Part shown: one piece after another, positions 1 to 11,766 of the stretch
Position numbering within the stretch: the stretch's first letter is position 1
Layout: each line of letters starts with the position of its first letter
Translations under genes and position numbers: made by a program
The notes under the pieces: model-generated
The model's database searches: none
Told to the model about the DNA's origin: nothing
Seen by the model: only the letters and a program-made list of their open reading frames with translations
Source: a virus
DNA: 34,490 nucleotides
Direction: 5' to 3' (one strand)
IMG/VR virus record: IMGVR_UViG_3300022074_000175
Span: 1 to 34,490 of that record

Positions 1-111
1 GGTAAGGGCGTGATAAAAGATTATGGCGTGAACAATCATTTCAAACAAGCTTTGAAACAGACGTGGCATGAGATAATTAAATGCCCTTACTGCAAGTGGT
101 TCAAGAAGTAA
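1..111 (+). CDS. 3' end of an unknown gene (truncated by window edge)
   Basis: Frame 1 is open from the first base to a TAA at 109-111, giving 36 residues that end in a CPYCKWFKK tail. The Cys-Pro-Tyr-Cys pair close to the C-terminus looks like half of a zinc knuckle, but the remainder is outside the window, so no function can be given. It lies on the same strand as the integrase, 69 bases upstream, and could share transcription with it. The codons look ordinary for the region. This may also be chance open frame, but the lack of a gap and the sensible residue composition favour a real gene end. Confidence 0.45.
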   Translation, partial: GKGVIKDYGVNNHFKQALKQTWHEIIKCPYCKWFKK

Positions 112-121
112 CCAAACTTAT

Positions 122-173
122 TCCCTTGTATAATCTGTTATACTATTATATAGTGTGAGGGTTATACAAGGGA
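122..173. repeat. 12-bp perfect inverted repeat framing the integrase promoter
   Basis: The left arm TCCCTTGTATAA (122-133) and right arm TTATACAAGGGA (162-173) are exact reverse complements, 28 bases apart. The right arm includes the AAGGGA ribosome-binding site of the integrase. If a transcript enters from upstream, pairing of the arms would hide that site; if transcription starts inside, the arms are better read as paired operator half-sites. An extra GTATAA/TTATAC pair with a 4-base spacer lies at 128-143. Confidence 0.7.
126..154 (+). promoter_or_regulatory. Candidate sigma70 promoter of the integrase
   Basis: TTGTAT at 126-131 and TATAGT at 149-154 are separated by exactly 17 bases. 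Transcription would begin near 161, about 20 bases before the integrase ATG. The element lies between the arms of the 12-base inverted repeat and contains TTATAC and GTATAA half-sites, so a repressor bound there would block it. Called by eye only. Confidence 0.45.
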
Positions 174-180
174 GTACAAC

Positions 181-1167
181 ATGACTTTAAACTTAACTTT
201 ACGTAATGATGTATGGCAAATCACTGGCACTGTCATACAAGACGGAAGACCAATCCGAGTTCGGAAATCCACTGGTCTTCACAAGAGCCAGAAATCACAA
301 GCCAAAGACGAACTAACAAAAACTTTCGCTGCCGTCGCAGCGGGAAGGGTCAAGACGAAATCAAGACGTCTTGCTGCTGACGCAGCGAGCGAGTTCCTGG
401 GACGACCAAGTTCACCTGGGACTACCGACCAAACAATCATGCGACTTTTTACGTCTGCACTTGGGCATGTTCCATTGCATGCGTTGACGTTGGAGCAGAT
501 TATGAGCCACGTAACAAGTCGAGGGAACAAGCCGAACACTGTGGCGAGAGAGTTGAACAGTATCAAAGCCATGCTATCGCATGCAGAAAGTATGGGGTGG
601 GATGTGCCAAGCATAAACATTGTACGTCCGAGCGTTGATGATAGTCGCTTGCGTTGGTTGACTGAGACCGAACGAGACCATCTGATTGACTGTTGCGATA
701 GCACAATCAAAGACGTCGTGACTTTTTTATTCTATACGGGGGCGAGGATTGGCGAGGCTTTCGCACTTTGTCCACAGGATATTCACAGGGGCTCGGCATT
801 ATTCACCAGCAGAAAAGGCAAGACGAAACGAAAAAAGGTTCGAGCTGTTCCGCTGGGGGCCAGAGTTCTTTCGATTCTGGCAGTCGACGACGACGACGAT
901 TTTGTTTTCACTCAGCCAGATGGAAGCCAGTGGTTGAGGGCGAAGTTCTACGACAGTTTTTACAATGCTTGTTCAGTTGCTGGCATAAAAGATTTTACAC
1001 CACATGATTGTAGGCACACGTTTGCCAGTCACTTGGTGCAAAAGGGGGCGTCGCTTCGAGCAGTCGCAGACTTGCTTGGACATTCGTCTCTAGCGATGGT
1101 GATGAGATACTCGCATCTTGCACCGACACACTTAGAAACAACAATAAACTTACTTGAAGGAGAGTAG
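181..1167 (+). CDS. int: Tyrosine recombinase, phage integrase
   Basis: 328 residues, a normal size for a phage integrase. All catalytic positions of the tyrosine recombinase family are visible: Arg189 in YTGARIGEA, a Lys in the RKGKTKRKK beta-hairpin (about 212-219), His275 and Arg278 in PHDCRHTF, His301 in LGHSS, and the nucleophile Tyr310 in MRYSHL. The N-terminal 60 residues are a short arm-type DNA-binding region and about 65-150 a core-binding domain. It would integrate and excise the phage by recombining attP with a host attB; neither site can be recognised from this window. The ATG has an AAGGGAG site 7 bases upstream. A run of five aspartates (236-240) lies on a GACGAC repeat. It is followed after one base by the next gene. 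The protein marks the phage as temperate or recently so. Confidence 0.97.
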   Translation: MTLNLTLRNDVWQITGTVIQDGRPIRVRKSTGLHKSQKSQAKDELTKTFAAVAAGRVKTKSRRLAADAASEFLGRPSSPGTTDQTIMRLFTSALGHVPLHALTLEQIMSHVTSRGNKPNTVARELNSIKAMLSHAESMGWDVPSINIVRPSVDDSRLRWLTETERDHLIDCCDSTIKDVVTFLFYTGARIGEAFALCPQDIHRGSALFTSRKGKTKRKKVRAVPLGARVLSILAVDDDDDFVFTQPDGSQWLRAKFYDSFYNACSVAGIKDFTPHDCRHTFASHLVQKGASLRAVADLLGHSSLAMVMRYSHLAPTHLETTINLLEGE

Positions 1168-1168
1168 A

Positions 1169-1477
1169 ATGGCAGAAGAACAGAAACAACCAGAGTTTGT
1201 GAAGGTCGCAGACGTTTGGATGGTAAAGAACGACGACACGTTCGTTGGTTTGGAGATGACGTTTACACAAAATGTCTTTAATAAAGATGGGGCAATGACA
1301 GTAATAGACTACATGAAAAATTCTATACTTAATACAAGATGGATGTTTGCAACAATCAATAGAGTAGAGGACAAAGATGCACCGACTAACGTACAAGCAG
1401 AAAGTGATGGCAGTGAAAATCCTAAAGCACCTCCGCCAATCAACGACACCAGTGAAGAGACAAAAGGAGATAGCTGA
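1169..1477 (+). CDS. Small acidic protein of unknown function
   Basis: 102 residues starting at an ATG one base after the integrase stop, with AAGGAGAG just upstream inside the end of int, so it is translationally linked to the integrase. Residues 1-65 look folded (mixed hydrophobic pattern, FVGLEMTF, TRWMFATINRV); the last 35 are Ser/Glu/Pro-rich and probably disordered. I do not recognise the family. Its position beside int might suggest an excisionase-like accessory factor, but it shows no clear helix-turn-helix and is acidic, so that is only a guess. The final 101 bases also encode the start of the winged-helix gene in another frame. Confidence 0.75.
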   Translation: MAEEQKQPEFVKVADVWMVKNDDTFVGLEMTFTQNVFNKDGAMTVIDYMKNSILNTRWMFATINRVEDKDAPTNVQAESDGSENPKAPPPINDTSEETKGDS

Positions 1478-1631
1478 CGCCATTGGCGTAGAACAAAACT
1501 CTGTTTCAAGACATCTGAAAACACTAACTTATATTGGATTCATTGACAGAGACGAGAATAGTTATATTGAGGGGCATAAAGCCCCTCAATATCTGGAGCA
1601 TTGGGCTGTAATTTTATTAGATTCTGCCTAG
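1377..1631 (+). CDS. Winged helix-turn-helix DNA-binding regulator
   Basis: 84 residues. The stretch RQKEIADAIGVEQNSVSRHL (about 28-47) is a textbook helix-turn-helix followed by a wing ending in FIDRD, as in MarR/ArsR/Lrp-like small regulators. It would bind DNA, probably as a dimer, and is a good candidate for control of the integrase region. The start at 1377 has GAGG six to ten bases upstream; a later ATG at 1407 is possible but has a weaker site. Starting at 1377 the gene overlaps the preceding gene by 101 bases in another frame. Its last codons overlap the convergent gene at 1617-2069 by 15 bases, and a strong hairpin (1564-1592) lies within its 3' end. Function as a regulator is inferred from fold only. 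Confidence 0.8.
   Translation: MHRLTYKQKVMAVKILKHLRQSTTPVKRQKEIADAIGVEQNSVSRHLKTLTYIGFIDRDENSYIEGHKAPQYLEHWAVILLDSA
1564..1592. terminator. 12-bp perfect hairpin inside the 3' end of the winged-helix gene
   Basis: ATATTGAGGGGC (1564-1575) and GCCCCTCAATAT (1581-1592) pair perfectly around the 5-base loop ATAAA. No T-run follows on either strand, so it is not a canonical intrinsic terminator. It sits 25 bases beyond the stop of the convergent minus-strand gene (1617) and 39 bases before the winged-helix stop, a place where a convergent transcript should end; it could block RNA polymerase or protect a 3' end. Confidence 0.5.
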
Positions 1632-2069
1632 ATACTTAGCCAATCCTAATATTAGGATACCACCAACGACGACGACTGCGAGTATAACTAAGAACCATGT
1701 GCCAATTAGTTCTGTTATCTCTCTTCGTCGTCGAATCTTTCTTTCTTTTTCTTCCTGTCTTTCTCTTCTGATGTCAGCTCGTAGACGTATTAATTCTTGC
1801 CATGCTGACGGCCCTCTTGTTGCGTAAACGATAGCACGTAAATTATCTTCAAGGTCTTCTGCTTGTTTCTTACTAATGAAAGACTCCATAGCCTCTTCGT
1901 TTACAGACTGGAATGGTCTGTTCTTAGCTTTGTTATGGTCATTTTTTACTGCGTCGATAGCATCGAACATTCGTCCAATGTCTTTAGCCAAAGACGTCAT
2001 CTCTTTTCCAGCGGAGACGCCAGCTTTTATTGCACCGAACGCTGCGATTGCGACACTTATAGGTTCCAA
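1617..2069 (-). CDS. Membrane-anchored phage protein of unknown function
   Basis: 150 residues. The N-terminus (MEPISVAIAAFGAIKAGVSAG) is small-residue-rich and amphipathic, the middle (about 60-118) is charged and helical with a very basic RRERQEEKERKIRRRR stretch, and residues about 121-145 form one C-terminal transmembrane helix. Proteins beginning MEPIS with this layout recur in marine phages as hypothetical proteins, from memory. A positive segment next to a C-terminal helix suggests a bulk of the protein inside the cell. The start is TTG at 2069, chosen because AAGGAGG lies six bases upstream and no ATG fits. Possible roles such as superinfection exclusion or lysis timing are speculation. 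It is the last gene of the small-protein cluster and converges with the winged-helix gene. Confidence 0.8.
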   Translation of the reverse strand: MEPISVAIAAFGAIKAGVSAGKEMTSLAKDIGRMFDAIDAVKNDHNKAKNRPFQSVNEEAMESFISKKQAEDLEDNLRAIVYATRGPSAWQELIRLRADIRRERQEEKERKIRRRREITELIGTWFLVILAVVVVGGILILGLAKYLGRI

Positions 2070-2119
2070 TTTCTACCTCCTTAACACCCTATACTAAGAT
2101 ACAAAAGGGAGTAGGAAGT

Positions 2120-2128
2120 GTCGTCCTA
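2120..2128 (-). repeat. TAGGACGAC motif, copy 1
   Basis: Minus-strand TAGGACGAC beginning with the stop codon of the zinc-ribbon gene. It is one of three exact copies (with 4257-4265 and 22117-22125) plus a variant at 32141-32147, all at gene ends on the same strand. Confidence 0.4.
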
Positions 2129-2446
2129 TAGTTCGTCTTCGTCGAACCTGACTAGGCCAGACATTACCTGTTTCTCAAGGTCGTCGTCTGAAAGACTGTC
2201 CAAGTCGTACATGTATGATGTGTTATTGAGTTTCTCCTGGGACGGCTGCGGAGTTTTTTTTCTTTTCGTCTGCGAAACGTTCTTCCCTGTAACGCAACTG
2301 TTCTCTGTGGTGGAGGATGTCTCTAATACTTCCAATGTCCAGAAGCTCGACGTACATTTTTTGCAAGTCCTCTTCCGTCTCGTCGTTCCGTCCTTTGAAC
2401 GACTGTCTAATACTTGTGTAGAGCCTCCGCAAGTAACGCAAATCAA
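2126..2446 (-). CDS. NrdR-like zinc-ribbon protein
   Basis: 106 residues. Cys3, Cys6, Cys28 and Cys31 with an intervening VLDSRSKDGTTRRKRTC closely follow the zinc ribbon at the N-terminus of NrdR (pattern CxxC, V-x-DSR, RRxRxC, then aromatic-T-x-E). NrdR's ATP-cone domain is missing; instead there is a polar linker and an acidic tail ending in RFDEDEL. It probably binds DNA or RNA, perhaps copying or countering host NrdR control of ribonucleotide reductase, but that is inference. The start is TTG at 2446, whose TTGA overlaps the TGA stop of the upstream gene, implying coupled translation; no ATG lies before the first zinc cysteines. Another frame over 2223-2441 is also open (see findings). 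Confidence 0.75.
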   Translation of the reverse strand: MICVTCGGSTQVLDSRSKDGTTRRKRTCKKCTSSFWTLEVLETSSTTENSCVTGKNVSQTKRKKTPQPSQEKLNNTSYMYDLDSLSDDDLEKQVMSGLVRFDEDEL

Positions 2447-2598
2447 GCCATTCTCGTACGCTTCTTCTGCTTTATCTTCTTGAAGTCTGCGCCTGTGATT
2501 TGGTCAAACGGTGGAGCCATGCCAGCAATCACCTTTTGCTTTGCTGTTAAGCCTGACTTCTTCATTTTCTTCTTCATGTTTTTGTTGCGACCCATCAT
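2443..2598 (-). CDS. Tiny basic phage protein, 51 residues
   Basis: Begins MMGRNKNMKKKMKKSG and continues GLTAKQKVIAGMAPPFDQ, ending KKIKQKKRTRMA. The GLTAKQK and PPFDQITGADF pieces match a style of very small basic protein common in marine phages, from memory, with no known function. About a third of the residues are Lys or Arg. The ATG at 2598 overlaps the upstream stop as ATGA, and the stop overlaps the next gene's TTG as TTGA, so it is wedged into a chain of coupled genes, which strongly argues that it is real. Binding to nucleic acid is plausible but unproven. Confidence 0.75.
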   Translation of the reverse strand: MMGRNKNMKKKMKKSGLTAKQKVIAGMAPPFDQITGADFKKIKQKKRTRMA

Positions 2599-2813
2599 TT
2601 CTTTTTACCTTTCTTCCAACTGATACGTGCTGGCCCTTTCTTTTTTCTACTGGCAGACGAGCATTGAGCCTTCGTCGGTCTGCAAGCTGGGTAAGGTCTC
2701 TTGGATTTACCCTTCGCCGACTTACGACCACAAGGCTTTCCAGTCTTGCAGTCTACCCAGCCCTTGCCTTTGTTTCGGCTGAACCATTTATGTAGACTTT
2801 CGCTTCGAGCCAC
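2595..2813 (-). CDS. Small Cys/Lys-rich phage protein (GWVDCKTGKPCGR family)
   Basis: 72 residues from a GTG at 2813; the frame is open further up to a GTG at 2843, but starting at MARSESLHKWFSRN gives the expected N-terminus and a GGGG site about nine bases upstream. The core GKGWVDCKTGKPCGRK and PACRPTKAQC carries four cysteines in CxxxxxxC and CxxxxxC spacing, possibly a metal site or disulphides, followed by a basic KKK tail. I recall this family as frequent in marine phages with no assigned function. The stop overlaps the next start as ATGA. It overlaps the end of the upstream gene by 26 bases. Confidence 0.75.
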   Translation of the reverse strand: MARSESLHKWFSRNKGKGWVDCKTGKPCGRKSAKGKSKRPYPACRPTKAQCSSASRKKKGPARISWKKGKKK

Positions 2814-2973
2814 TCTTATTACCCCAGTTTTTTGCGCCAACACGTCTGCATTTTACCAAAGCGCCCGATGCGTAAGCACTAGGCCATTTGGTGTAGCGAG
2901 ACTTAACTTTATGATAGCAAGCGTCTTTCTTTGAAGACGTCTTACGCTTTTTTGATGTTGACTTTCTTGCCAT
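2788..2973 (-). CDS. Small basic phage protein (KDACYHKVKSRY family)
   Basis: 61 residues with a Lys/Ser-rich N-terminus (MARKSTSKKRKTSSKK) then a conserved-looking core KDACYHKVKSRY, WPSAYASGALVKCR and a basic end. This core is one I recognise from many marine phages; the function is unknown. Two cysteines (C19, C42) might bind a metal or form a bridge. The ATG at 2973 has AAGAGG about six bases upstream, better than the start further up (3009). It overlaps a 43-residue frame upstream and the GTG-start gene downstream. Confidence 0.8.
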   Translation of the reverse strand: MARKSTSKKRKTSSKKDACYHKVKSRYTKWPSAYASGALVKCRRVGAKNWGNKSGSKRKST

Positions 2974-3073
2974 TGTTACCTCTTGCCAACACGCAAGGAC
3001 AATTTGCATGTTTCATTTTACCTGTCTGCGTTTTGTTAGCGACAGCTTTTACCTTTCTCGCAATGCTAGCCAC
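2942..3073 (-). CDS. Possible 43-residue basic protein
   Basis: A GTG-start frame reading MASIARKVKAVANKTQTGKM and ending VNIKKA, with a CPC cysteine pair at 25-27. It fills the otherwise empty space between two small genes on the same strand, has a modest TAGG site upstream, and is basic like its neighbours. It overlaps the next gene by 32 bases. I know no relatives, and the frame is short enough to be chance. Confidence 0.45.
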   Translation of the reverse strand: MASIARKVKAVANKTQTGKMKHANCPCVLARGNNGKKVNIKKA

Positions 3074-3078
3074 AGTAT

Positions 3079-3270
3079 TTACCTACGTCTGAGTGAACGA
3101 CCACGACCACCGAAGATAGGCTTTACTCCTGTGGTTGTTCTACCAAACTGACTTGGCATCATAGACATAGCACGATACGGGTTGATGTTTCTGCCACCAA
3201 CCTTCATCGTCTGCATCCCTGGGGTTTTTCCACGAGACCCAAAGATTACACCTCTATTTTTCTTAATCAT
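3079..3270 (-). CDS. Small Gly/Arg-rich phage protein, 63 residues
   Basis: Reads MIKKNRGVIFGSRGKTPGMQ with several Met and Gly residues, ending FGGRGRSLRRR. It is strongly basic, lacks hydrophobic core segments and is probably mostly unfolded until bound. AGGAGAG lies seven bases before the ATG at 3270, inside the end of the 35-residue gene whose TAA directly abuts this start. Nucleic-acid binding is possible from the RGG-like tail; no function is known to me. Confidence 0.75.
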   Translation of the reverse strand: MIKKNRGVIFGSRGKTPGMQTMKVGGRNINPYRAMSMMPSQFGRTTTGVKPIFGGRGRSLRRR

Positions 3271-3378
3271 TTAAGCTCTCCTAATGGGCTTTTTCTTTTT
3301 CATTGAGGAGCCTTTTTTTGATGCCATAGCTTTCTTCTTCGGCATAGGCTTTTTCATTGACTTTTTCATTCCACGCAT
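3271..3378 (-). CDS. Nested 35-residue Lys-rich protein
   Basis: MRGMKKSMKKPMPKKK followed by AMASKKGSSMKKKKPIRRA: half of the residues are Lys or Arg and six are Met. The ATG at 3378 has a perfect AAGGAGG six bases upstream, and its TAA is directly followed by the ATG of the next gene, so translation signals on both sides fit a real gene. Yet 98 of its 108 bases also code for the C-terminus of the 205-residue protein in another frame. Met/Lys-rich peptides of this type are common in marine phages; nucleic-acid binding or a packaged peptide are guesses. Confidence 0.7.
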   Translation of the reverse strand: MRGMKKSMKKPMPKKKAMASKKGSSMKKKKPIRRA

Positions 3379-3898
3379 TGTAAACCTCCTTGCGGTTGTT
3401 AATGTATTTAATATCTTCTATCTTAAACTTTTGATAGTAACTTGTCTTCCTCAACTTGTCAGAAGCTTGAACAAGTTTACCTAAAGATTGCACTAAAATT
3501 AGTGCGTAGTCGTCCTCAACAAGACCATCGAACTCAGGAATGTTGGGATTGTGTTCGGCGTCTGGGTGAAACCCCATCAGCCAAATACCGAAATGATTTT
3601 TGTTTTGGTCGTCTATCCAAAGCTCGAACTCTTGTTGAGTCAAGTCTTCCCAACCTGTCCACGCTACGACATGCACTGTGTCGTCTGTTGGTAACAGCTC
3701 TTGGCTTTTAATATCTATGACTGGTGCGAGATGGTCGGTGACATGGACGACGACATTGTTTTCGAGCCATGCCTTTCTTGCGAATGGACATGGTGGCATG
3801 TCTGCAAATAATGGTGTTGGTTTTTCTAATACTTCGCTAGACCAAGCTTGTATTTCCGCTGCAATTAATTCTGAATATTCTTCCCAGTCGTCTGCCAT
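3281..3898 (-). CDS. Conserved-type phage protein of unknown function, 205 residues
   Basis: Starts MADDWEEYSELIAAEIQAW from the ATG at 3898, which overlaps the stop of the upstream gene as TAATG; an in-frame GTG four codons earlier is less likely. The protein is acidic and mixed alpha/beta, with a PPCPFARKAW segment near residue 36, an HVVAWTGW strand, and FGIWLMGFHPDAEHNP about residue 105. Similar proteins with a CPFARKAW element occur in marine phages as hypotheticals, from memory. No catalytic motif is clear, although the aromatic-rich HPDAE stretch looks conserved. The C-terminal 33 residues share DNA with the nested 35-residue gene. Confidence 0.8.
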   Translation of the reverse strand: MADDWEEYSELIAAEIQAWSSEVLEKPTPLFADMPPCPFARKAWLENNVVVHVTDHLAPVIDIKSQELLPTDDTVHVVAWTGWEDLTQQEFELWIDDQNKNHFGIWLMGFHPDAEHNPNIPEFDGLVEDDYALILVQSLGKLVQASDKLRKTSYYQKFKIEDIKYINNRKEVYNAWNEKVNEKAYAEEESYGIKKRLLNEKEKAH

Positions 3899-4161
3899 TA
3901 ACACTTCCACCTACGTCTGGCTGCGCAGATTCTTTTCTTCGGAGTCTTCTTACAGCTGATGTTGTGCATTTTCATTTGTCCAGCAGACCTTGCACAGTAT
4001 GATTTCTTGCGCTTTCCACCTTTTGGTTGAGGTGCTTTCAGGTTAGAGCCAGTAGCTTTGTTGTATTTACGTCTGCCTTTTGCGGTGAGGCCCGCCCCTT
4101 TGGAGGCGGGTCTCTTCTCGCCTCTTCCTACTGATAAGCTTACGTTCTTTTTTCGTGCCAT
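3898..4161 (-). CDS. Small basic Cys-containing phage protein (AGLTAKGRRKYN family)
   Basis: 87 residues from the ATG at 4161. The core KGAGLTAKGRRKYNKATGSN, then APQPKGGKRKKSYCARSAGQM, then ISCKKTPKKRICAARRRWKC carries four cysteines and is very basic. I recognise this as a family recurring in marine phages (I think Pfam DUF6321, not certain). It probably binds nucleic acid or structural RNA/DNA, but no experiment is known to me. The start has only a weak upstream site; the frame is open to 4197 by a TTG, which gives an unlikely N-terminus. Its stop overlaps the next start as TAATG. Confidence 0.8.
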   Translation of the reverse strand: MARKKNVSLSVGRGEKRPASKGAGLTAKGRRKYNKATGSNLKAPQPKGGKRKKSYCARSAGQMKMHNISCKKTPKKRICAARRRWKC

Positions 4162-4249
4162 ACCCAAAAACCACTCGATATAATATGTATAGGACAAGAC
4201 AAGCTACGAACTCAACCTCCTGTCCTTCTACAAGATTACCGATTTTCAC
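4067..4249 (-). CDS. Doubtful 60-residue frame with one hydrophobic helix
   Basis: A GTG-start frame filling the 101-base gap between two genes. Residues about 11-30 (EVEFVACLVLYILYRVVFGY) form a membrane-like helix, followed by a basic tail. There is no good ribosome-binding site, and the last 95 bases are shared with the next gene in another frame, where the residues look random. A small membrane protein is possible; chance is about as likely. Confidence 0.25.
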   Translation of the reverse strand: MKIGNLVEGQEVEFVACLVLYILYRVVFGYGTKKERKLISRKRREETRLQRGGPHRKRQT

Positions 4250-4256
4250 AACACAA

Positions 4257-4265
4257 GTCGTCCTA
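4257..4265 (-). repeat. TAGGACGAC motif, copy 2
   Basis: Minus-strand TAGGACGAC starting with the stop codon of the resolvase-like gene, exactly as in copy 1 at 2120-2128. Confidence 0.4.
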
Positions 4266-4646
4266 TCTGTTGTTAAATTTAACAGACCCTGTTTCTCGTA
4301 AGTAACTAGAATAGAATCTTAGGAAGTCGTCAAGCCTAATTAGACAAAGGCTGTCGCCAGTCTTCATTCTATTTTTTCTGTTAATTACAATAGGAACTTC
4401 TGGTGAATTGGTTTTCTCTATGTTACGTTCGGCTTGTCTCAGGGCGTCATGGAAGTTCAGACGTTCAACACGTTTTGCTTCTATGAATATCCCTGGGACA
4501 CCAAGAACGTCTGCACCTCCGTACATATCTACGTTGCCTCCTCCAGAAAGAGGGGCTCGATGTGCAGTTCTTAAACCAGTTTCTTTGTTTATGTATTTGG
4601 CTAACTCTCTTTCGTAGTCGTCGCCTTTTTTCTTTTGCTTACTCAA
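4263..4646 (-). CDS. PD-(D/E)xK nuclease, Holliday-junction-resolvase-like
   Basis: 127 residues. Glu12 in the YERELA helix, Asp46 in GGADVLGV and Glu56-x-Lys58 in IFIEAKRV give the active-site order of small PD-(D/E)xK endonucleases of the archaeal Hjc / VRR-NUC kind, and GGADV...G-FIEAK is the usual local context. It would cut branched DNA after replication and recombination, or nick host DNA. The start is TTG at 4646, overlapping the upstream TGA as TTGA, because no ATG occurs before the catalytic N-terminal helix; GGGG and GAAGA stand just upstream. Sure of the fold, less sure of the substrate. Confidence 0.8.
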   Translation of the reverse strand: MSKQKKKGDDYERELAKYINKETGLRTAHRAPLSGGGNVDMYGGADVLGVPGIFIEAKRVERLNFHDALRQAERNIEKTNSPEVPIVINRKNRMKTGDSLCLIRLDDFLRFYSSYLRETGSVKFNNR

Positions 4647-4936
4647 TCTTCATACCCCAACTCTTTTCTGCAAGACTTACAGAAGAACCACATTCTTGGT
4701 CGCTCTGTTTTATCGCCACATTTCATGCACGGCCTAGCCCACGTTTTTCCTTGGAAGTCACGGCGAACCTGATACTTGGCCCCATCGAACTCTTGTAAGC
4801 CTTCTCTTACAAGTATTCTTTTCAAGGTATCGACGCAACAGTTTAACTTTTGCGCCATGTCAGAGTAAGTTTTAATTCTATGGTTTTGACGAAGCCAAGA
4901 TAAGTCCGAGTCCGAGACTCGAATGTTTCTTGGCAT
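4643..4936 (-). CDS. HTH plus zinc-ribbon DNA-binding protein
   Basis: 97 residues from the ATG at 4936 with AAGGAG ten bases upstream; the frame is open seven codons further to a TTG that would swallow this site. Residues about 23-48 (YSDMAQKLNCCVDTLKRILV) form a helix-turn-helix like those in homing-endonuclease and resolvase-type proteins; Cys70, Cys73, Cys86 and Cys89 form a four-cysteine zinc ribbon. It probably binds a specific phage sequence, perhaps the palindromes in the adjacent gap. It is first in the leftward operon, right behind a candidate promoter, which fits an early regulator. Confidence 0.8.
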   Translation of the reverse strand: MPRNIRVSDSDLSWLRQNHRIKTYSDMAQKLNCCVDTLKRILVREGLQEFDGAKYQVRRDFQGKTWARPCMKCGDKTERPRMWFFCKSCRKELGYED

Positions 4937-4960
4937 ATATCTCTGCTCCTTTTCCAATAA

Positions 4961-5011
4961 TAGTATAACATTTAATACTAAATATAAAATAATTCAAATT
5001 ATTTTTTCAAA
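4961..5011 (-). promoter_or_regulatory. Candidate leftward promoter with two palindromic operators
   Basis: On the minus strand TTGAAA (5011-5006) and TTATAT (4988-4983) are 17 bases apart, giving a start near 4976. The spacer is itself a palindrome, AAATAATT-CA-AATTATTT (4988-5005). A second one, TAGTAT-8-ATACTA (4961-4980), covers the start point. This pairing of promoter and symmetric sites suggests repressor control of the small-protein operon. Called by eye. Confidence 0.5.
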
Positions 5012-5037
5012 AACTATTGATTTATCCAGTCAAAACT

Positions 5038-5130
5038 GATACAACGACTAAACGTTTAGTCTTAAAAGTCGGGGTTGTAAACCCCGCCTTTTGACTTAAT
5101 GCGTTATTAGCTAAGTTTGGTCGTTGTATC
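5038..5130. repeat. Palindrome cluster; candidate operator or replication origin
   Basis: GATACAACGACTAAAC (5038-5053) and GTTTGGTCGTTGTATC (5115-5130) form a 16-base inverted repeat with one mismatch. Inside lie the perfect 16-base palindrome GACTAAACGTTTAGTC (5046-5061) and the hairpin at 5064-5092. The flank 4970-5035 is very AT-rich. Three nested symmetric elements in a 205-base gap beside the primase-helicase gene could be an origin, an operator array or a recombination site; the sequence alone does not decide. Confidence 0.6.
5064..5092. terminator. Bidirectional terminator-like hairpin
   Basis: CGGGGTT (5070-5076) pairs with AACCCCG (5080-5086) around GTA; beyond a single T/C mismatch the stem continues as AAAAG with CTTTT. 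The A-run before and T-run after make it usable in both directions, including as the end of leftward primase-helicase transcripts that cross the small gene at 5142-5321. Confidence 0.6.
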
Positions 5131-5141
5131 ACATTCTATAC

Positions 5142-5321
5142 ATGAAAAAATTAACCAGAAAACAAAAAGACATAGAAGATAAATACAATTCTTGGAAGCG
5201 TAGTCGTGAAGAGAATAGGAAGAAGCACCCCGAAGTTGCTAAGATAGTTGACGAGGTGCGTAAGCACTTCCCTGATGCTAAAGTTACTTCGATAACTCCA
5301 ACCAAAGACGGACAAGATTAA
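5142..5321 (+). CDS. Small charged helical protein, 59 residues
   Basis: MKKLTRKQKDIEDKYNSWKR and onward is highly charged and helical (EENRKKHPEVAKIVDEVRKHF), ending SITPTKDGQD. The ATG at 5142 is preferred over one at 5124. No ribosome-binding site is visible and the upstream bases are AT-rich, so translation would be weak or leaderless. The 3' end overlaps the convergent primase-helicase gene by 38 bases. It is the only plus-strand frame in this stretch; composition looks like a real protein, but I know no family. Confidence 0.55.
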   Translation: MKKLTRKQKDIEDKYNSWKRSREENRKKHPEVAKIVDEVRKHFPDAKVTSITPTKDGQD

Positions 5322-7185
5322 GAGGCTTGCCTAGCTTTTCAGCTATGTGACCAGCATCCAATCCATTCAACGCCATCTCTTTTGCTTTTTGTTTCGTAGA
5401 CTTACTAGCAACAATTCTTTTCTCGCCAGTAATATCATTAGCAGAAAACCCTAGCCATTGAACTCTGTCGTGTAGGTCTGTCCACTCACGGACTTTCCCG
5501 TAACGAATCTCCATAACCATGTACAGACGAAAGTTCTCAGGCAAAGTTCCTTGCAGCAAGGGCCAAACAGGTTGGTCATAATTGCCGTCGTACAGAGCAG
5601 CATTTTGTTTTGCTGTCTCTTCGTCTTGGAATACTTGAGCTACACGTATCTGAGTTTCCAAAGTCGTGAGCTGATTCGTTGAGCCAGCTTCTCTTCCGAT
5701 ACCACTGTCACTAGGTTTGTTACTATGATGGATAAGTATTACAGACAAGCCAGAGTTTCTTAGCTTGACTGCCAGCTGGTTTACCTTAGACCATTCGTCT
5801 GAACTGTTTTCTTGTAGCCCTGGGTAAGCTGTTCTTAGTGTATCTATAACGACAACGTCTGGGTCAGAGAACTGTATCCATCCTTGTAGTTCTTGAAGAC
5901 CATCTCTGTTGTGCAGATTGATTTCTTTCTTATCAATAAACGGAGTCCAGATATTTAGCCTGTCAGCTGTATCCGAATGAATAGATTTCAAATCAATCAA
6001 TCGTCTTGCGATTGTTGCCATACCCATTTCAAAATCCATGTACAAGACACGTGCTGGTTTACCTATCTCGAAGGGGCCAAAGTATTTATTCCCAGCAGAC
6101 AAAGCGCCCATTGCATGTTGCACAAACAACGACTTGCCGTGACCACTGTATCCAAATACTTGGACAATCGTGTTACTTGGTAGCCAAGGTTCTATTAGAT
6201 ATGTCTTGGCGTCAGCTTCTTGAAGTAGCTGGTCTGCATCTTTCATTTGTATAAGTCTGCGTGACCTAGCTTCGACTGGTTGGTTCGCATTTATGTAGGG
6301 CTTATATATATAGTCTCCCTTTTCATCGAATCTGTCTGGATGATTACGCCTTTCTGATTGCTCCATCGAAAGCACTGTTGCTTCAAACTCACGCTCGGTT
6401 AATGGGTCTTCAAAAAACTCATTCATAAAAGCAAAGCCACGAAGACGCAAGTCGTGTCCCCAGAAACCTTCTAGTATTGATTCGGAAATGTAACGCATCA
6501 CTCGTTCGTTGCGTCCGTTGCCAAGACCAGATGGAATCTTCAATGAGTTAGGGAATGATTCACGGACATACTTAGCTGTCCTGTCCCACTCAGAAATAAA
6601 CTCGTCTGGTTCTAATGGCATGACAGAAGACAAGTCTAGTTCTGAAAACTCAAACTCTTTTCCGTCCATGCACGACAAGACAGGCTTCCAATCCTTCCAC
6701 ATCGGAAGGTCGTCCCAGTCCATGCCCATGCCTATCTGCCAGCTATAGTTTTTACTTGGAGGTAATAAAGCATAAGAGCCATCACCTCTGAAATCTAACC
6801 CATTAATACGAGGCCAGTCGGAGCCCGTGCTGTTTACTCCAGCACGAGGCCCACGACGAACGCCGTCTTTGGGATGCTCGAAATATAAATGCACTCCTCT
6901 TTTCGTCTTGACTGTAAAAGCCGAGCGCATGCCTGTATTGATTGCCTGATTGTAAGCTTCTTCGTTATCACAATCGACGACAACAACTCCACTCACTTCG
7001 CCTGTTATGATTGCAATGTCATACTCAGGCCACTGAGTCCACCATTGCTCCACTTCTTTTTCTGTTGGCGGTGTTTCTTGATATTGTCTCCACTTTATAG
7101 CGGGTCTCTTAGCGTCTGGTTTGATTGGTATTACAGACCAACCTCTCTCAAGATAATCCAGAGCTGCGTCCAGTTTTTCGTTCAT
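5284..7185 (-). CDS. Primase-polymerase / helicase replication protein
   Basis: 633 residues from the ATG at 7185, which has GAGG nine bases upstream; ATGs two and three codons earlier are too close to that site. Residues about 5-180 are a bifunctional primase-polymerase domain: GWSVIPI, the metal-binding VVDCD, RGVHLYFEHP and LDFRGDGSYALLPPS are diagnostic. About 230-300 (GLGNGRNERVMRY to PLTEREFE) resemble the PriCT domain. From about 335 comes a RecA-type ATPase: Walker A GYSGHGKS (345-352), LYMDFEMG, Walker B VVVIDTLR and an ILIHHSNK sensor strand, as in RepA/DnaB-like phage helicases. A C-terminal helix-turn-helix (KEMALNGLDAGHIAEKLG) may bind origin DNA. It would unwind and prime phage DNA for host polymerase, since no phage polymerase is seen. 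The start lies inside the end of the Cro-like gene. Confidence 0.92.
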   Translation of the reverse strand: MNEKLDAALDYLERGWSVIPIKPDAKRPAIKWRQYQETPPTEKEVEQWWTQWPEYDIAIITGEVSGVVVVDCDNEEAYNQAINTGMRSAFTVKTKRGVHLYFEHPKDGVRRGPRAGVNSTGSDWPRINGLDFRGDGSYALLPPSKNYSWQIGMGMDWDDLPMWKDWKPVLSCMDGKEFEFSELDLSSVMPLEPDEFISEWDRTAKYVRESFPNSLKIPSGLGNGRNERVMRYISESILEGFWGHDLRLRGFAFMNEFFEDPLTEREFEATVLSMEQSERRNHPDRFDEKGDYIYKPYINANQPVEARSRRLIQMKDADQLLQEADAKTYLIEPWLPSNTIVQVFGYSGHGKSLFVQHAMGALSAGNKYFGPFEIGKPARVLYMDFEMGMATIARRLIDLKSIHSDTADRLNIWTPFIDKKEINLHNRDGLQELQGWIQFSDPDVVVIDTLRTAYPGLQENSSDEWSKVNQLAVKLRNSGLSVILIHHSNKPSDSGIGREAGSTNQLTTLETQIRVAQVFQDEETAKQNAALYDGNYDQPVWPLLQGTLPENFRLYMVMEIRYGKVREWTDLHDRVQWLGFSANDITGEKRIVASKSTKQKAKEMALNGLDAGHIAEKLGKPLNLVRLWLELSK

Positions 7186-7375
7186 GTTCATCATCCTCAA
7201 AGTAATCGTTAAAGTCAATTTCTGGAGCATGCTCCTTTATTTTCTCAAGAACTTGGCTACTTAAATAGCATCGTTTAATCCAACCATATGGGGCAGTCCT
7301 AACGACGCCAGTTATCTTAGCCACCGAAGACGCTCCACCTAAATCGGTGACGAGCCTTTCGATGTTAAGTCGCAT
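7148..7375 (-). CDS. Cro/YdaS-like helix-turn-helix regulator
   Basis: 75 residues. LVTDLGGASSVAKITGV followed by TAPYGWIKRCYLSS is the pattern of small Cro/YdaS-type repressors (helix 2 SSVAKITG, recognition helix around APYGWIKR). AAGGAG stands seven bases before the ATG. The C-terminal 25 residues are acidic then basic and overlap the start of the primase-helicase gene by 38 bases. It reads away from the plus-strand operon across a shared control region, the classic layout of a lysis-lysogeny switch. Its likely targets are the GTATAA/TTATAC sites between the genes. Confidence 0.85.
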   Translation of the reverse strand: MRLNIERLVTDLGGASSVAKITGVVRTAPYGWIKRCYLSSQVLEKIKEHAPEIDFNDYFEDDEHERKTGRSSGLS

Positions 7376-7387
7376 TTTGTTCTCCTT

Positions 7388-7416
7388 TTGACTTGCATTA
7401 ATGTATAATTTATACT
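7388..7416 (+). promoter_or_regulatory. Sigma70 promoter of the rightward replication operon
   Basis: TTGACT (7388-7393), a 17-base spacer, then TATACT (7411-7416): five and five of six consensus bases at ideal spacing, the best promoter in the window. The start would be near 7423, about 64 bases before the first gene. GTATAA-T-TTATAC (7403-7415), a symmetric site, overlaps the -10, so a repressor there would shut the operon. Confidence 0.75.
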
Positions 7417-7436
7417 ACACATATATTATTAATCAA
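7409..7436 (-). promoter_or_regulatory. Leftward promoter of the Cro-like gene
   Basis: On the minus strand TTGATT (7436-7431) and TATAAA (7414-7409) are 16 bases apart. Its -10 overlaps the -10 of the rightward promoter and the same GTATAA-T-TTATAC site, so the two promoters should interfere and share one operator. Confidence 0.5.
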
Positions 7437-7486
7437 GTCATCATTCATAAAAATTTGCTGATGACACATTAAAATAAGGAGGTCGT

Positions 7487-7921
7487 ATGACTGATAGTTG
7501 GGACGTGTTCGACGCAACACGCAAAGATGATGTCGCATCTAAAACGACACAGCGATTGGAAGAAATGTCTTCCAAGCTGTATAAACTAAGCCAAGAACGG
7601 CAGACCCTCGATGAGCAAATATCTGTGCTAGAGGGAGACATCTCAAGATTATTTCCAGAAGAGTCAGGCTCACAATCCAAAGACTTAGGATTGTATGAGG
7701 TTACTGTTTCTCGTACTGAAAGATGGTCTTGGGATAAGGATGCGCTTGAAAAACATTTTGAAGAGAAACCTCTTCCAAATTATGTAAGGCGTAATCTTAG
7801 CATAGATAAAAGGCAGTATACAAAGATGCCTTTGGAAACTCAAAATGAAATCAAGTATTGCTTAACACGCAATTTAGACAAAGCGAAAGTGAGGGTAGTT
7901 AAAAATGTTCAAGACGTTTAG
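7487..7921 (+). CDS. Coiled-coil protein at the head of the recombination operon
   Basis: 144 residues; AAGGAGG lies just upstream of the ATG. Residues about 18-55 (TTQRLEEMSSKLYKLSQERQ) are a heptad-rich coiled coil; from about 68 (LGLYEVTVSRTERWSWD) there is a small beta-rich domain ending KVRVVKNVQDV. I recall phage proteins of this layout next to Sak4-type ATPases, catalogued only as a domain of unknown function. A loader or partner for the ATPase or SSB that follow is a fair inference. Its last 17 bases overlap the next gene. Confidence 0.8.
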   Translation: MTDSWDVFDATRKDDVASKTTQRLEEMSSKLYKLSQERQTLDEQISVLEGDISRLFPEESGSQSKDLGLYEVTVSRTERWSWDKDALEKHFEEKPLPNYVRRNLSIDKRQYTKMPLETQNEIKYCLTRNLDKAKVRVVKNVQDV

Positions 7922-8660
7922 CACAAAAGACATAATGCAAGATGGGCCTACAAAGGTTCTGCTTTATGCACATCATGGGTTTGGTAAAACATTTCAGTGT
8001 AGATATTACCAAGCTAGATACGGTAAGGGTCTCATTCTTTCTGGTGAGGCTGGGTTGAAATCAATCGAAGACGTGGAGATAGACTACGTTCCATTTACTT
8101 CTTGGGCTGGTAAGCACGAGCCTGAGAGTGGAACATATAGTTTCCGTGGGATTATGCAGATGATTAAGACGGAAGAATTTGCCAAGCAAGGCTACAAGTG
8201 GATAGCCATTGATAGTTTGACAGAGATGTCAGATAGATTGATGGAGCATCTTGAGCAAGAAAATCAGGGAGAGAGCAACAACTTTAAAATATGGGGCGAC
8301 AATGCACGTATTATGGTTGGTGCTTTGAAGTGGATACGTGACTTGCCTATGCACGTTTACGTTACCTGTTTGGCGAAGGAGGAGAAGGACGCTAATGATG
8401 TAACTCATTATTGGCCAATGGTAAAAGGAGCTTCTGTTGCAAAACAAGTTCCAGCTTTGTTTGACCACGTCTTATGTGGTGTGAGACGAACAGAGACAAA
8501 CGATAAAGGCTTGCCAAAGGTTAAGAGATATATCGTTACCGACGAAGTAAGTGGGTGGCATGGTAAAACCAGAGACCCAAAAGGTGTACTGAAACCATTT
8601 GAAAAAGTGGATGATGTCACTGAATTATTAACACGAATGGCTACTGCCGAGGAGAAATAA
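7905..8660 (+). CDS. Sak4-like RecA-fold ATPase (single-strand annealing/recombination)
   Basis: 251 residues, normal for the family. Walker A is AHHGFGKT (22-29), followed by a conserved LILSGEAGLKSIEDVEID; Walker B is WIAIDSLTEM (about 102-111), and an HVYVTCLAKEE strand fits sensor position. These are the features of Sak4-type phage recombinases, which share the RecA core but lack its flanking domains and act with an SSB in annealing-type recombination. The neighbours, an SSB-like protein and a nuclease, support this. GAGGG is placed nine bases before the ATG inside the previous gene. Confidence 0.88.
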   Translation: MFKTFSTKDIMQDGPTKVLLYAHHGFGKTFQCRYYQARYGKGLILSGEAGLKSIEDVEIDYVPFTSWAGKHEPESGTYSFRGIMQMIKTEEFAKQGYKWIAIDSLTEMSDRLMEHLEQENQGESNNFKIWGDNARIMVGALKWIRDLPMHVYVTCLAKEEKDANDVTHYWPMVKGASVAKQVPALFDHVLCGVRRTETNDKGLPKVKRYIVTDEVSGWHGKTRDPKGVLKPFEKVDDVTELLTRMATAEEK

Positions 8661-8662
8661 AT

Positions 8663-9148
8663 ATGAGTGATTGGAACTTTACTAATCTTGACTTGTCTTC
8701 AGTTGAAGAAGGGTCAGGAAGCACACGTCTTCAACAAGGCGTTTATACAGTGGAATGTAAGAGTGCATCCATTGAACCAGTTGGTGCGACCAACAATAGA
8801 AAATTGGTTCTTGACTTCGACGATGTCGATGGTCAAGGTGATATAAGGGTGAACCTTAACATCAAACACACCAGTAGTCAGGCACAAGAGATTGCGCTCA
8901 GACAGTTAAAATCTTTTCTCGTCTGTGCTGGACACTCGACACCTGACAAACCTGGGGATGTTGCTACTCTGAAAGGACTCAAGTGTAAAATCAGAGTTGG
9001 TTTAGGTAAGCCTTGGACTGGTGATGACGGAGCGCAAAGACAGACCTCAGAAGTCAAGTCGTACATGCCGATTAAAGGTGATGACAAGTCTGGAGGTTCT
9101 GACTCTCCCACAGACACGAAAGACTTGGACGACGAAATTCCGTTTTAG
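8663..9148 (+). CDS. Single-stranded DNA-binding-like protein (DUF669-like)
   Basis: 161 residues with an OB-fold-like centre (GVYTVECKSASIEP, KLVLDFDDVDG, DIRVNLNIKH, CKIRVGLGKPW) and a Gly/Ser-rich linker leading to the acidic tip DLDDEIPF. That tip closely resembles the C-terminal peptide of bacterial SSB, which recruits host repair and replication proteins. It matches the DUF669 group found next to Sak4 ATPases. It would coat phage single-stranded DNA. The start two bases after the previous stop has GAGGAG upstream. A strong terminator follows. Confidence 0.85.
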   Translation: MSDWNFTNLDLSSVEEGSGSTRLQQGVYTVECKSASIEPVGATNNRKLVLDFDDVDGQGDIRVNLNIKHTSSQAQEIALRQLKSFLVCAGHSTPDKPGDVATLKGLKCKIRVGLGKPWTGDDGAQRQTSEVKSYMPIKGDDKSGGSDSPTDTKDLDDEIPF

Positions 9149-9157
9149 TCACTAGCA

Positions 9158-9194
9158 AAGAAGGAGTGGACTCCTCCCCACTCCTTCTTTTTTT
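9158..9194 (+). terminator. Strong intrinsic terminator between SSB and nuclease genes
   Basis: AAGAAGGAGTGG (9158-9169) pairs perfectly with CCACTCCTTCTT (9178-9189) around an 8-base loop, followed by T to 9194: a 12-bp stem and a seven-T run. It starts nine bases after the SSB stop and ends seven bases before the nuclease start, so downstream genes depend on read-through, antitermination or a promoter I cannot see. Confidence 0.9.
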
Positions 9195-9200
9195 ATAGGT

Positions 9201-10028
9201 ATGATTATGGTTGAAGCACATAAAATAGTAGAAGCAATAGACGAAGGATACGAGAGACAGCCAAAAGAAAAAGCTCGTGATTACATAGGTGCGTCTATGA
9301 TTGGCACGGCTTGTGATGCAGAGATAGCTTTTAGTTTGCGTGGGTTCCCAAACAATCCACCTACACCAAGATTGAAAAGAATATTTAGACTTGGTCATAT
9401 ATTAGAAGACGAAGTTGTAAAAGATTTAAAAGAAAAAGCTGATGTTCGAGTGTGGGAAACAGATGGTCTCACTGGGAAACAGCATACGTATGAAGAGCTT
9501 GGCGGTCACATTGTATGTCATATGGATGGACACATACAATTAGATGATAGCAAAGAGGACTTACATGTTCTTGAAATAAAAAGCATGAACGATGCTTCAT
9601 GGAAAAAGTTTTATAAAGATGGTGTGAAGAAATCACATCCAAGATATTACTCACAGTTACAGATGATGATGGGGATGTCTAAAATGGAGACATCTTTTTT
9701 TATAGCCGTTAATAAAAACACTAGCGAGTATCACTCAGAGGTTGTCGATTATGATGACCTTGAGTTTATGTTTATTAAAGAACGGATTGAGAGGGTATTA
9801 CTTAACAAAGCGAGGAAGATAAGCAATGACGAAACAGATTGGAGATGCCGAGGGTGTTTTAAAAGGGGTGCGTGTTGGGGAAAAACTGACGTTCCTACAA
9901 CATGCCAAACATGTAAGTTTGCAATCGCCAAAGCAGATGGAGATTGGTATTGCCAGAAACACGAACGAGATGCCAGAGAACCTTGTAACGTTTACGAGCT
10001 TTATGAGCCGTTCCCAAAGGGAAGTTAA
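9201..10028 (+). CDS. PD-(D/E)xK exonuclease with a Cas4-type cysteine signature
   Basis: 275 residues (ATG at 9207 also possible; the upstream site is weak). The nuclease core reads GHILEDE (Glu69), CHMDGH (Asp109), VLEIKS (Glu125-x-Lys127) and YYSQLQMMM (Gln152), the RecB-type order. Four cysteines match Cas4/AddB spacing: Cys38 in GTACDAEIAF, then Cys216-x2-Cys219-x5-Cys225, the arrangement that holds a 4Fe-4S cluster in those enzymes. A second cysteine group (235, 238, 251, 262, with His254) may bind zinc. It would resect DNA ends for the Sak4/SSB pair. No cas genes or repeat arrays are present, so this is a phage recombination nuclease and not a CRISPR part. Confidence 0.85.
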   Translation: MIMVEAHKIVEAIDEGYERQPKEKARDYIGASMIGTACDAEIAFSLRGFPNNPPTPRLKRIFRLGHILEDEVVKDLKEKADVRVWETDGLTGKQHTYEELGGHIVCHMDGHIQLDDSKEDLHVLEIKSMNDASWKKFYKDGVKKSHPRYYSQLQMMMGMSKMETSFFIAVNKNTSEYHSEVVDYDDLEFMFIKERIERVLLNKARKISNDETDWRCRGCFKRGACWGKTDVPTTCQTCKFAIAKADGDWYCQKHERDAREPCNVYELYEPFPKGS

Positions 10029-10029
10029 A

Positions 10030-10290
10030 GTGAATTACGAAGAGTTGGAAAAAGAATTTGTGACTGTTCATACTAAACGTTCTGAAGTTATGAAACAAAT
10101 TGAGCATAACGAAAACGAAATCAATTCTATATTGGAACGCATATCCAGAACGAACATGGATAAGAATGACTTTGCAAAAGCCAATGATAAAAGAAAACAT
10201 CTTCGTAAGGAAACCGTTGAGCTTAATCATAAGAAGAGAGAGCTTGAGGTAAAGATTCAACTAATAAAGATGAGGATGAAAAATGAATAG
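10030..10290 (+). CDS. Small coiled-coil protein
   Basis: 86 residues from a GTG at 10030, one base after the nuclease stop, with AAGG and GAAG just upstream; an open frame extends back into the nuclease gene but its N-terminal residues are noise. Almost the whole chain is a charged coiled coil (YEELEKEFVTVHTKRSEVMK, then KRKHLRKETVELNHKKRELE). Function unknown; a partner for the nuclease is possible from the coupling. Its end overlaps the next gene by 8 bases. Confidence 0.8.
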   Translation: MNYEELEKEFVTVHTKRSEVMKQIEHNENEINSILERISRTNMDKNDFAKANDKRKHLRKETVELNHKKRELEVKIQLIKMRMKNE

Positions 10291-10600
10291 AAGTGAGATT
10301 TTAAAGACGGCAGACCAACTTATTAATTCTGACAGAGCCAAAGTATATGGCCCAGCAAAGAAGAACCACGAAGACATCGCAAAGATTTGGTCTGTGATTC
10401 TTGGGATTGAGGTAACAGACTGGCAAGTAGTGTTGTGTATGGCTGGTGTAAAAATTTCTAGGATAATAAAAACGCCGAAGCATACAGATTCTTGGGTAGA
10501 CCTGACTGCTTATGGTGCGATAGGAGGTGATATAACAGATGAAAGTAATAATAGAGAGTCCGTTCAAGGGAAGAAACGAGGCAGACCGAGAAGTAAATAG
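10283..10600 (+). CDS. DUF6378-like phage protein with AT-hook-like tail
   Basis: 105 residues. AKVYGPAKKNHEDIAKIWSV, GIEVTDWQVVLCMAGVKISRI and SWVDLTAYGAI fit a small helical family often found in phage genomes (DUF6378, from memory), whose DRxxxYG and DxxxYxA positions resemble MazG-like nucleotide pyrophosphohydrolases. A role in nucleotide pools is therefore plausible but not shown. The last ten residues KKRGRPRSK contain an AT-hook-like GRP core that could bind AT-rich DNA. GAGG stands seven bases before the ATG. Confidence 0.8.
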   Translation: MNRSEILKTADQLINSDRAKVYGPAKKNHEDIAKIWSVILGIEVTDWQVVLCMAGVKISRIIKTPKHTDSWVDLTAYGAIGGDITDESNNRESVQGKKRGRPRSK

Positions 10601-10862
10601 AGAGTTCGCACGTAAGTGTATGCTTGATTCACTAAAAAAGGGCGAGAGCCCTTTTTTATCACACCTATTATATACTCAAGTTCTTAACGAAGACGTCGAA
10701 GCAGAGAGAAGAATAGGCTTAGATGCTGCATTTAAATGGTACGAGGTCGCAGACTTTGTTGTCGTCTATACAGATAGAGGAATAACAAAGGGTATGAAAG
10801 AAGGAATAAAAGTAGCGAGAGATTTAAAGAAGGTTGTTGAGTATCGTTCTTTTAAAACTTAG
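10539..10862 (+). CDS. Deoxyribosyltransferase-like phage protein (DUF7768-like)
   Basis: 107 residues: MKVIIESPFKGR, KKGESPFLSHLLYTQVL, ERRIGLDAAFKWYEVADFVVVY and DRGITKGMKEGIKVA match a widespread phage family whose ESPF...N, GESP-SHLLY and D-G-SxGM motifs resemble nucleoside 2-deoxyribosyltransferases (DUF4406/DUF7768 type). Nucleotide salvage or modification is inferred. The ribosome-binding site is a full AGGAGGTGAT, placed 11 bases from the ATG inside the previous gene, which it overlaps by 62 bases. A perfect terminator-like hairpin lies in its coding region (10634-10657). It ends overlapping the endolysin gene by 4 bases, tail to tail. Confidence 0.85.
   Translation: MKVIIESPFKGRNEADREVNREFARKCMLDSLKKGESPFLSHLLYTQVLNEDVEAERRIGLDAAFKWYEVADFVVVYTDRGITKGMKEGIKVARDLKKVVEYRSFKT
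10634..10657. terminator. Perfect bidirectional terminator inside a coding region
   Basis: AAAAAAGGGC (10634-10643), GAGA tetraloop, GCCCTTTTTT (10648-10657): a 10-bp perfect stem with six A before and six T after. It codes for SLKKGESPFL in the plus-strand gene. On the minus strand it stands about 200 bases beyond the endolysin stop, the natural end of the late operon. Confidence 0.75.
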
Positions 10863-11317
10863 TCTACACTCAACTCAAAGTGCGGAGCGTCAATGAATGG
10901 TCGTCTACCTTGTGACCTACGCAAATCTATATAAGCACTCATAGCTTCTTCCATTGTTCCATCCCAATCTCTGATGTCAGGTATCTGCCACGCAGCGCCC
11001 CATCGAAGTCCAACTCCTTCGTCTTGCGCTGCCTTTTTCATTGCGTCTGCAACATCATCATACAGGTTTAATTCCCAGGAACCTCTTGAGCCAATGTAAC
11101 ACATCAAGTCTACGGCATCACCAGTAAGGTGGCGGGACTTCATCGTCTGTGAAGCACCCTTGTCTACCAGCTCTCGTTGTTCAGCTTCAGTTCTCATTCC
11201 ACAAATAACACCGAAGTCAATCTTTGTAAGAAGTATTGCTCTGTTCACAACTAATTGTAATTCGTCTTTGACGCCCTCAAGTTTGCCGAGACTTCTTTCT
11301 GATAACTTAAATGCCAT
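10859..11317 (-). CDS. Endolysin, M15-type peptidase
   Basis: 152 residues. SRHLTGDAVDL (His63, Asp70) and APHFEL (His146, Glu148) are the zinc and catalytic motifs of M15 / VanY-like peptidases used as phage endolysins, and RWGAAW lies where the family has WGGDW. It would cut peptidoglycan cross-peptides at lysis. There is no signal peptide or membrane segment, so it needs the adjacent holin. AGGAAA precedes the ATG. It is the last gene of the late operon. Confidence 0.9.
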   Translation of the reverse strand: MAFKLSERSLGKLEGVKDELQLVVNRAILLTKIDFGVICGMRTEAEQRELVDKGASQTMKSRHLTGDAVDLMCYIGSRGSWELNLYDDVADAMKKAAQDEGVGLRWGAAWQIPDIRDWDGTMEEAMSAYIDLRRSQGRRPFIDAPHFELSVD

Positions 11318-11373
11318 ACTGTTTCCTTTTTTTGTTGATGTGTGTATTCGTAAATGTCTGAATAAATCTTGCG

Positions 11374-11766
11374 TTATTTTTTTGTGTCCGTCTTTTTCAT
11401 CTTGTCATAGCTCCTCATTCCACCAATTCCGAGCATGCCAAACATCAACGGCATCATCACAGACATGTCTGCTTGTGGTATCATAATGCCAAAGCCAGCA
11501 CAAATCGGTGCGACCATGTAATTGATTCCAAGGGATAAGCCAGAAATCCAGCCAATCAAGGGTCGCCAAGACGACTGAAACCAGTTGCCCTGTGCGTCTG
11601 CTTTCAAGACTTCTATCTGAGCGAGCGCAAGCTGCTGGGCATGTTTCTCAGACATCGTCGCCAACTCGTGGGCGATTTCTGCTTTCTTGTCTGCGTCAGG
11701 TATAAATTTATCTAGTAGCCCTGTTACTGGGCCAATCAGTGCTTGTATCATTTTCTTGCCATCCAT
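11374..11766 (-). CDS. Holin, 3TM/GTA type
   Basis: 130 residues. After an amphipathic start (ALIGPVTGLLDKFIPDADKK) and a helical region come WRPLIGWISGLSLGINYMVA and about 96-116 as membrane segments, then a basic C-terminal tail. This is the pattern of the three-transmembrane holins of gene transfer agents and alphaproteobacterial phages. It would open the inner membrane for the endolysin. A start at 11751 (MIQALIGPV) is also possible. It overlaps the EF-hand gene by 19 bases. Confidence 0.85.
   Translation of the reverse strand: MDGKKMIQALIGPVTGLLDKFIPDADKKAEIAHELATMSEKHAQQLALAQIEVLKADAQGNWFQSSWRPLIGWISGLSLGINYMVAPICAGFGIMIPQADMSVMMPLMFGMLGIGGMRSYDKMKKTDTKK

Follow-up and report, generated by a model that had tools for sequence, protein, structure and literature searches.

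Small basic proteins known from a tailed-phage head include the internal proteins IPI, IPII and IPIII of phage T4, each present in about 360 copies and contacting DNA through lysines (PMC9026906, PMC3012670). The T4 protease gp21 cuts after L/I-X-E (PMC9026906). Basic DNA-binding proteins in the virion of chlorovirus PBCV-1 have been proposed to neutralise packaged DNA; according to one published view, phage DNA is neutralised little by basic proteins (PMC3281028). In cyanomyoviruses, the gene family T4-GC 119 was listed as a mere hypothetical protein in a 2010 comparison (PMC3037559).

Here we analyse a cluster of tiny basic genes in a linear, 34,490-bp virus record from IMG/VR, called the window below (the whole stretch of DNA under analysis). 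Since relatives with a 96-99 % identical capsid protein span 44.7-55.8 kb, the window is a fragment; a nucleotide search of its positions 1-20000 against phage records gave no match. The encoded proteins are small and basic like the T4 internal proteins, and may likewise reside in the head. However, we detected no sequence relation between the two sets, and three of the modules studied here, B61, B82 and B87, are Cys-paired, widespread in marine phages and organised differently: small phages encode each one as a leaderless gene of its own, T4-like phages as part of a multi-module chain. The window's proteins have no leader, their relatives yielded no T4-type protease, and no relation to the T4 sequences was found; these proteins are therefore not members of that group and would be alike in function only. 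T4-GC 119 (SSM1_115 of cyanophage S-SM1) joins B82-like, B61 and B87 modules in one chain, but is 495 aa long and carries extra modules. The likeness to PBCV-1 concerns the proposed role alone, the viruses and protein families being unlike.

Gene content and conservation of the cluster

Seven basic ORFs of 35-87 aa lie on the minus strand from 4161 to 2443, arranged around an acidic 205-aa gene. The features of the region, in the direction of transcription, are:

4981-5010, minus strand: promoter-like TTGAAA-18-TATATT upstream of the unit (a consensus match alone; such sites are not above chance in the region)
4263-4646, minus strand: PD-(D/E)XK / RusA-like nuclease, which precedes the cluster in the unit as its right neighbour (PF24608, phrog_244)
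3898-4161, minus strand: B87, basic, 87 aa, DUF6321 (PF19846; Pfam E=4e-16, above the gathering cut-off)
3281-3898, minus strand: acidic 205-aa protein within the cluster, a possible partner (pI 4.7, charge -18; phrog_28122)
3271-3378, minus strand: B35, basic, 35 aa, 46 % K/R (conserved in L006, L007 and L008)
3079-3270, minus strand: B63, basic, 63 aa, without Cys (dN/dS 0.02 against L006; 14 IMG/VR loci)
2942-3073, minus strand: B43, basic, 43 aa, with a CPC motif (conserved in L006-L008)
2788-2973, minus strand: B61, basic 61-aa KKDACYHKVKSRY...PSAYASGALVKCR module (phrog_727/38880/3477)
2595-2843, minus strand: B82, basic 82-aa LHKWF...GWVDCKTGKPCGRK...YPACRPTKAQC module (GTG start as annotated)
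2443-2598, minus strand: B51, basic, 51 aa (dN/dS 0.24 against L006; relatives in nine loci of the first survey)
2126-2446, minus strand: NrdR-like zinc-ribbon protein, which follows the cluster in the unit as its left neighbour (PF22811, E=4e-9)

The preliminary description of this DNA had reported seven Lys/Arg-rich frames of 35-87 residues, several with Cys pairs, and all are present: K+R amounts to 24-46 %, the pI to 10.9-12.0 and the net charge to +10.8 to +27.5 each (about +125 in sum), with four Cys in B87, four in B82, two in B61, two in B43 and none in B35, B63 and B51. Its claim of tight coupling between the nuclease gene and the zinc-ribbon gene holds for the spacing, neighbours from B87 to the NrdR-like gene being separated by 0-5 nt or overlapping by 1-98 nt, and both flanking genes were identified; however, the acidic ORF (3898-3281) interrupts the series, so that the cluster is not an unbroken run of basic genes. 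This acidic gene is conserved in L006-L008, and of 400 loci, 45 have a member of its family beside the modules. Its 3' end overlaps B35 by 98 nt in a different frame, with both products conserved. For B82, a shorter alternative start near MARSESLHKW is possible.

Two further observations concern the window at large. Positions 5037-5131, which lie between the cluster's unit and the helicase/primase gene, hold a 17-nt inverted repeat (TGATACAACGACTAAAC / GTTTGGTCGTTGTATCA) around a 7-bp GC hairpin, a candidate operator, origin or terminator. The largest gene (12442-22065) encodes a 3207-aa protein whose match to virion-structural proteins is weak and which is possibly an internal/ejection protein.

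Are the seven tiny ORFs genuine genes? The coding strand is 36 % A here, and such ORFs could in principle be chance products of an A-rich strand. However, a strict count gave six small basic ORFs. Among 1000 first-order Markov sequences with matching composition, the average was 1.6 and one sequence reached six, and 175 of 220 equal windows on both strands held zero such ORFs. Homologues number in the hundreds and, for all seven ORFs, substitutions relative to related phages fall mostly at third codon positions, with dN/dS of 0.02-0.26 against L006. This pattern, with every ratio below 0.3, refutes chance for all seven and leaves that explanation a negligible probability; sequence comparison confirms them as real genes under protein-level constraint.

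The preliminary description had made its proposal depend on conservation in related phages, and B61, B82 and B87 do have relatives in hundreds of viral contigs. The B61 module occurs in 366 phage records, mainly from cyanomyoviruses. For B82, viral contigs supplied at least 594 relatives, while about 85,000 cellular genomes gave four matches, each in a metagenome-assembled genome; the family is therefore viral. The other four proteins, B63, B43, B35 and B51, have a narrower spread and occur mainly in close relatives. That none of the proteins has a known function, as first described, is true, but B87 belongs to a named Pfam family, scoring 59.8 bits against DUF6321 (gathering cut-off 28.5) over model positions 4-72 of 72. 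B61 scored 16.5 bits against DUF5872 (PF19197), below the cut-off of 27.5, and is not assigned to it. NCBIfam and PADLOC searches placed the tiny proteins in no family, and our literature search found DUF5872 mentioned in one paper and DUF6321 named in none. In the closest relative, B87 (L006:5118-5363) is a diverged allele with 72 % amino acid identity between neighbours at 92-97 %, which suggests gene replacement.

Linkage, fusion and protease motifs

The three widespread modules travel together. Among 80 viral contigs found with B82, 76-78 carry B61 directly upstream of it, never on the opposite strand and in most cases with the two genes overlapping or abutting, and B87 copies near B82 share its strand in 48 of 48 cases. 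An independent search with B87 recovered 80 contigs, 69 of them with B61 and 66 with B82. Moreover, B61 and B82 are fused in 75 ORFs of other phages. Both module orders occur, the swapped one in 3 of 31 fused representatives (selected at an 85 % identity cut). That fused chains come in either order is an argument for the modules working together. The three-module chain of S-SM1 has a counterpart in cyanophage S-B43, annotated there as 'structural protein'. The link of B87 to B61, B82 and the head is described here; Pfam states no function for DUF6321.

Another Cys-paired basic module, FRARHNCD...ARYWSCKAW (annotated as HVA1 family; L002:9174-9431, for example), was seen at 149 loci. It recurs with B61 and B82, and three ORFs encode it in fusion with them.

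In T4-like phages, the fused B61/B82 relatives bear short leaders ending in [IL]xE, as does T4 IPI (MKTFKEF...ITE/A). The motif also stands within about six residues before B61 in 28 of the 31 fused representatives and before B82 in 26, where shuffled linkers predict 7-9, although this test overstates independence because the sequences are related. The control motifs [IL]xK, [ILVM]xD, [DEK]xE and AxE are not enriched in these representatives. In Flavobacterium phage immuto, scaffold-like, protease and capsid proteins also carry [IL]xE close to their N-termini. Of 31 records from the fused-form scan, 22 encode the T4-type protease (PF03420); it was found in none of 41 separate-gene records, the closest long relatives G002-G004 included. 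This contrast is confounded by lineage (T4-like or not). The window's proteins have neither leader nor protease motif, and among separate relatives the motif is present in 1 of 208 B61 and 4 of 225 B82 sequences.

Given these leaders and [IL]xE motifs, a prohead protease could trim or release the modules inside the head of T4-like phages. As the P1' residue at module-proximal motifs is mostly K, D or E, unlike the Ala of T4 IPI, cleavage of the fused chains is a prediction.

Genomic position and virion content

An annotated terminase, portal, scaffold, capsid or tail gene lies within 3 kb of the modules in 219 of 400 loci, a raw and uncontrolled count; in the fused-form scan, a head gene was recognised within 3 kb in 0 of 80 loci. 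In Prochlorococcus phage P-SCSP2, B61, B82 and B87 all lie between the scaffold and major capsid genes, and in S-SBP1 and P-SCSP1 B87 is close to the capsid gene. B82 lies upstream of the terminase gene in CRP-2, CRP-7 and CRP-207, close to terminase or portal in C72C1, and within the stretch preceding the capsid gene in HTVC027P and Roseobacter phage CRP-902. In the window's own lineage, the cluster of a 55.7-kb relative stands between helicase/primase and integrase, with the capsid gene about 30 kb away.

Two neighbourhoods contain other genes of potential interest. P-SCSP2 encodes, between its scaffold and capsid genes, a 41-aa basic protein with an EF-hand-like stretch, KIDANKDGKISREDF (L093:4764-4889). 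Relatives of the window carry next to the integrase, beyond the window's left edge, a large CobS-like ATPase (phrog_249) and an adjacent gene on the opposite strand (L275:14173-16005 and 12213-14201; L006:10761-14034).

The recurrence of three modules together in hundreds of mostly marine phages, usually near capsid-building genes and sometimes fused, makes packing inside the head with the DNA the most likely role. We infer, with roughly balanced confidence, that the cluster encodes internal head-associated proteins; their location, DNA binding and function in the window's phage are predictions alike. Such small basic proteins would enter the prohead and lie alongside the packaged DNA, which their Lys/Arg-rich surfaces could neutralise or tether. 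Small phages such as the window's would use overlapping genes to make each module as a tiny protein of its own, and T4-like phages would make fused chains with short leaders and [IL]xE motifs.

Published proteomes bear on this. Cyanophage S-CREM2 has a protein ending in a B87 module, gp137, which mass spectrometry detected in the purified virion with four unique peptides (4.1 % coverage), along with its basic neighbour gp136, seen with eight peptides (PMC10665884); the leader of gp136 reads MQTFSMFFSE. S-SZBM1_192, a DUF6321/B87 protein with the T4-like leader MKTFKQYITEA, is not among the 30 virion proteins of S-SZBM1 (PMC9146016). This last result would suit intracellular nucleic-acid-binding proteins, active in replication, recombination or regulation and never part of the virion. 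Such a role would also agree with the composition of the cluster's unit, which includes the nuclease and the NrdR-like zinc ribbon and adjoins helicase/primase, and with gp164 of Ma-LMM01, a B87 protein encoded among replication genes. However, most lineages place the modules by terminase, portal, scaffold or capsid genes, the fused forms carry [IL]xE motifs, and gp137 is present in a virion; we consider a purely intracellular role unlikely.

Alternatively, the proteins may be assembly or packaging cofactors that work with scaffold, portal or terminase and are lost from the mature head. Genes lying between scaffold and capsid or beside terminase would fit such cofactors, as would the 3.2 A capsid of P-SCSP1u, which consists of capsid protein alone with no extra shell protein (PMC10575957) and thus no ordered additional component. 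Yet mature particles did contain gp137 and gp136, and the level of charge would suit DNA better than a specific assembly role, so that we regard transient cofactors as rather unlikely too. The same capsid excludes an ordered decoration, a candidate we disfavour, and is still compatible with a disordered internal protein.

Head-packed proteins may exit together with the DNA. Do they then serve takeover or counter-defence in the newly infected cell? T4 internal proteins have the same small basic design plus a leader, and IPI inhibits a restriction enzyme (PMC3012670); the diverged B87 allele of L006, set between well conserved flanks, would also agree with an ejected effector. On the other hand, phages of Synechococcus, Roseobacter and Flavobacterium share well conserved B61 and B82 modules, which makes a host-specific arms race an unlikely fit, and nine proteins searched against the PADLOC models, which cover defence proteins and not inhibitors, gave no match at E<0.01. 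An ejected effector therefore seems improbable. The host-takeover set first proposed for these genes finds no specific support, related copies being mostly in late head/packaging regions and not among early genes, and a takeover role is weakly supported.

Paired cysteines and a possible role in DNA packing

In 237 B61, 278 B82 and 126 B87 unique sequences, the main Cys columns are strictly paired, with no singles, although shared ancestry lowers the number of independent changes behind these counts. B61 has both main Cys in 157 sequences, neither in 80 and a single one in 0 (22 have Cys in a neighbouring column). The inner pair of B82 is present in all sequences, its outer pair is complete in 144 and absent in 134, and a further pair is complete in 24 and otherwise absent. 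One pair is invariant in B87, and the other is complete in 52 and absent in 74. These counts suggest disulfide pairs and not four-ligand zinc sites. We disfavour a zinc finger, as a lone Cys pair remains in about half of B82 and B87 sequences and the pairs vary independently. Disulfides would probably stabilise such tiny domains in the extracellular particle.

Structure comparisons added little. Sequence searches of solved structures found no match for a B87-type protein or B61, and for B82 one zinc-finger match at chance level (E 0.25). An AlphaFold model of a fused B61+B82 chain was discarded (pLDDT 48.5). That of B87 (pLDDT 76, pTM 0.44) has three predicted helices; it matched no PDB fold and nothing in BFVD below E 0.001, where the top matches were DUF6321 proteins.

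The charge, the protease motif in relatives and the association with head genes all agree with the DNA-condensing set envisaged in the preliminary description, DNA binding itself being predicted. A more specific version, which we put forward tentatively and consider somewhat doubtful, is that disulfide-paired, protamine-like modules condense DNA in marine phage heads, encoded by separate genes in small phages and by a polyprotein processed by the prohead protease in T4-like phages.

B61, B82 and B87 are recurring, unexplained tiny genes of marine phages, with more than 500 contigs each for B82 and B87. Recognising the separate genes of small phages as parts of the fused chains of T4-like phages gives them a testable role, and that role bears on whether basic proteins aid DNA packing in tailed-phage heads. 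If true, DNA-condensing modules would contradict the view that basic proteins barely neutralise phage DNA.
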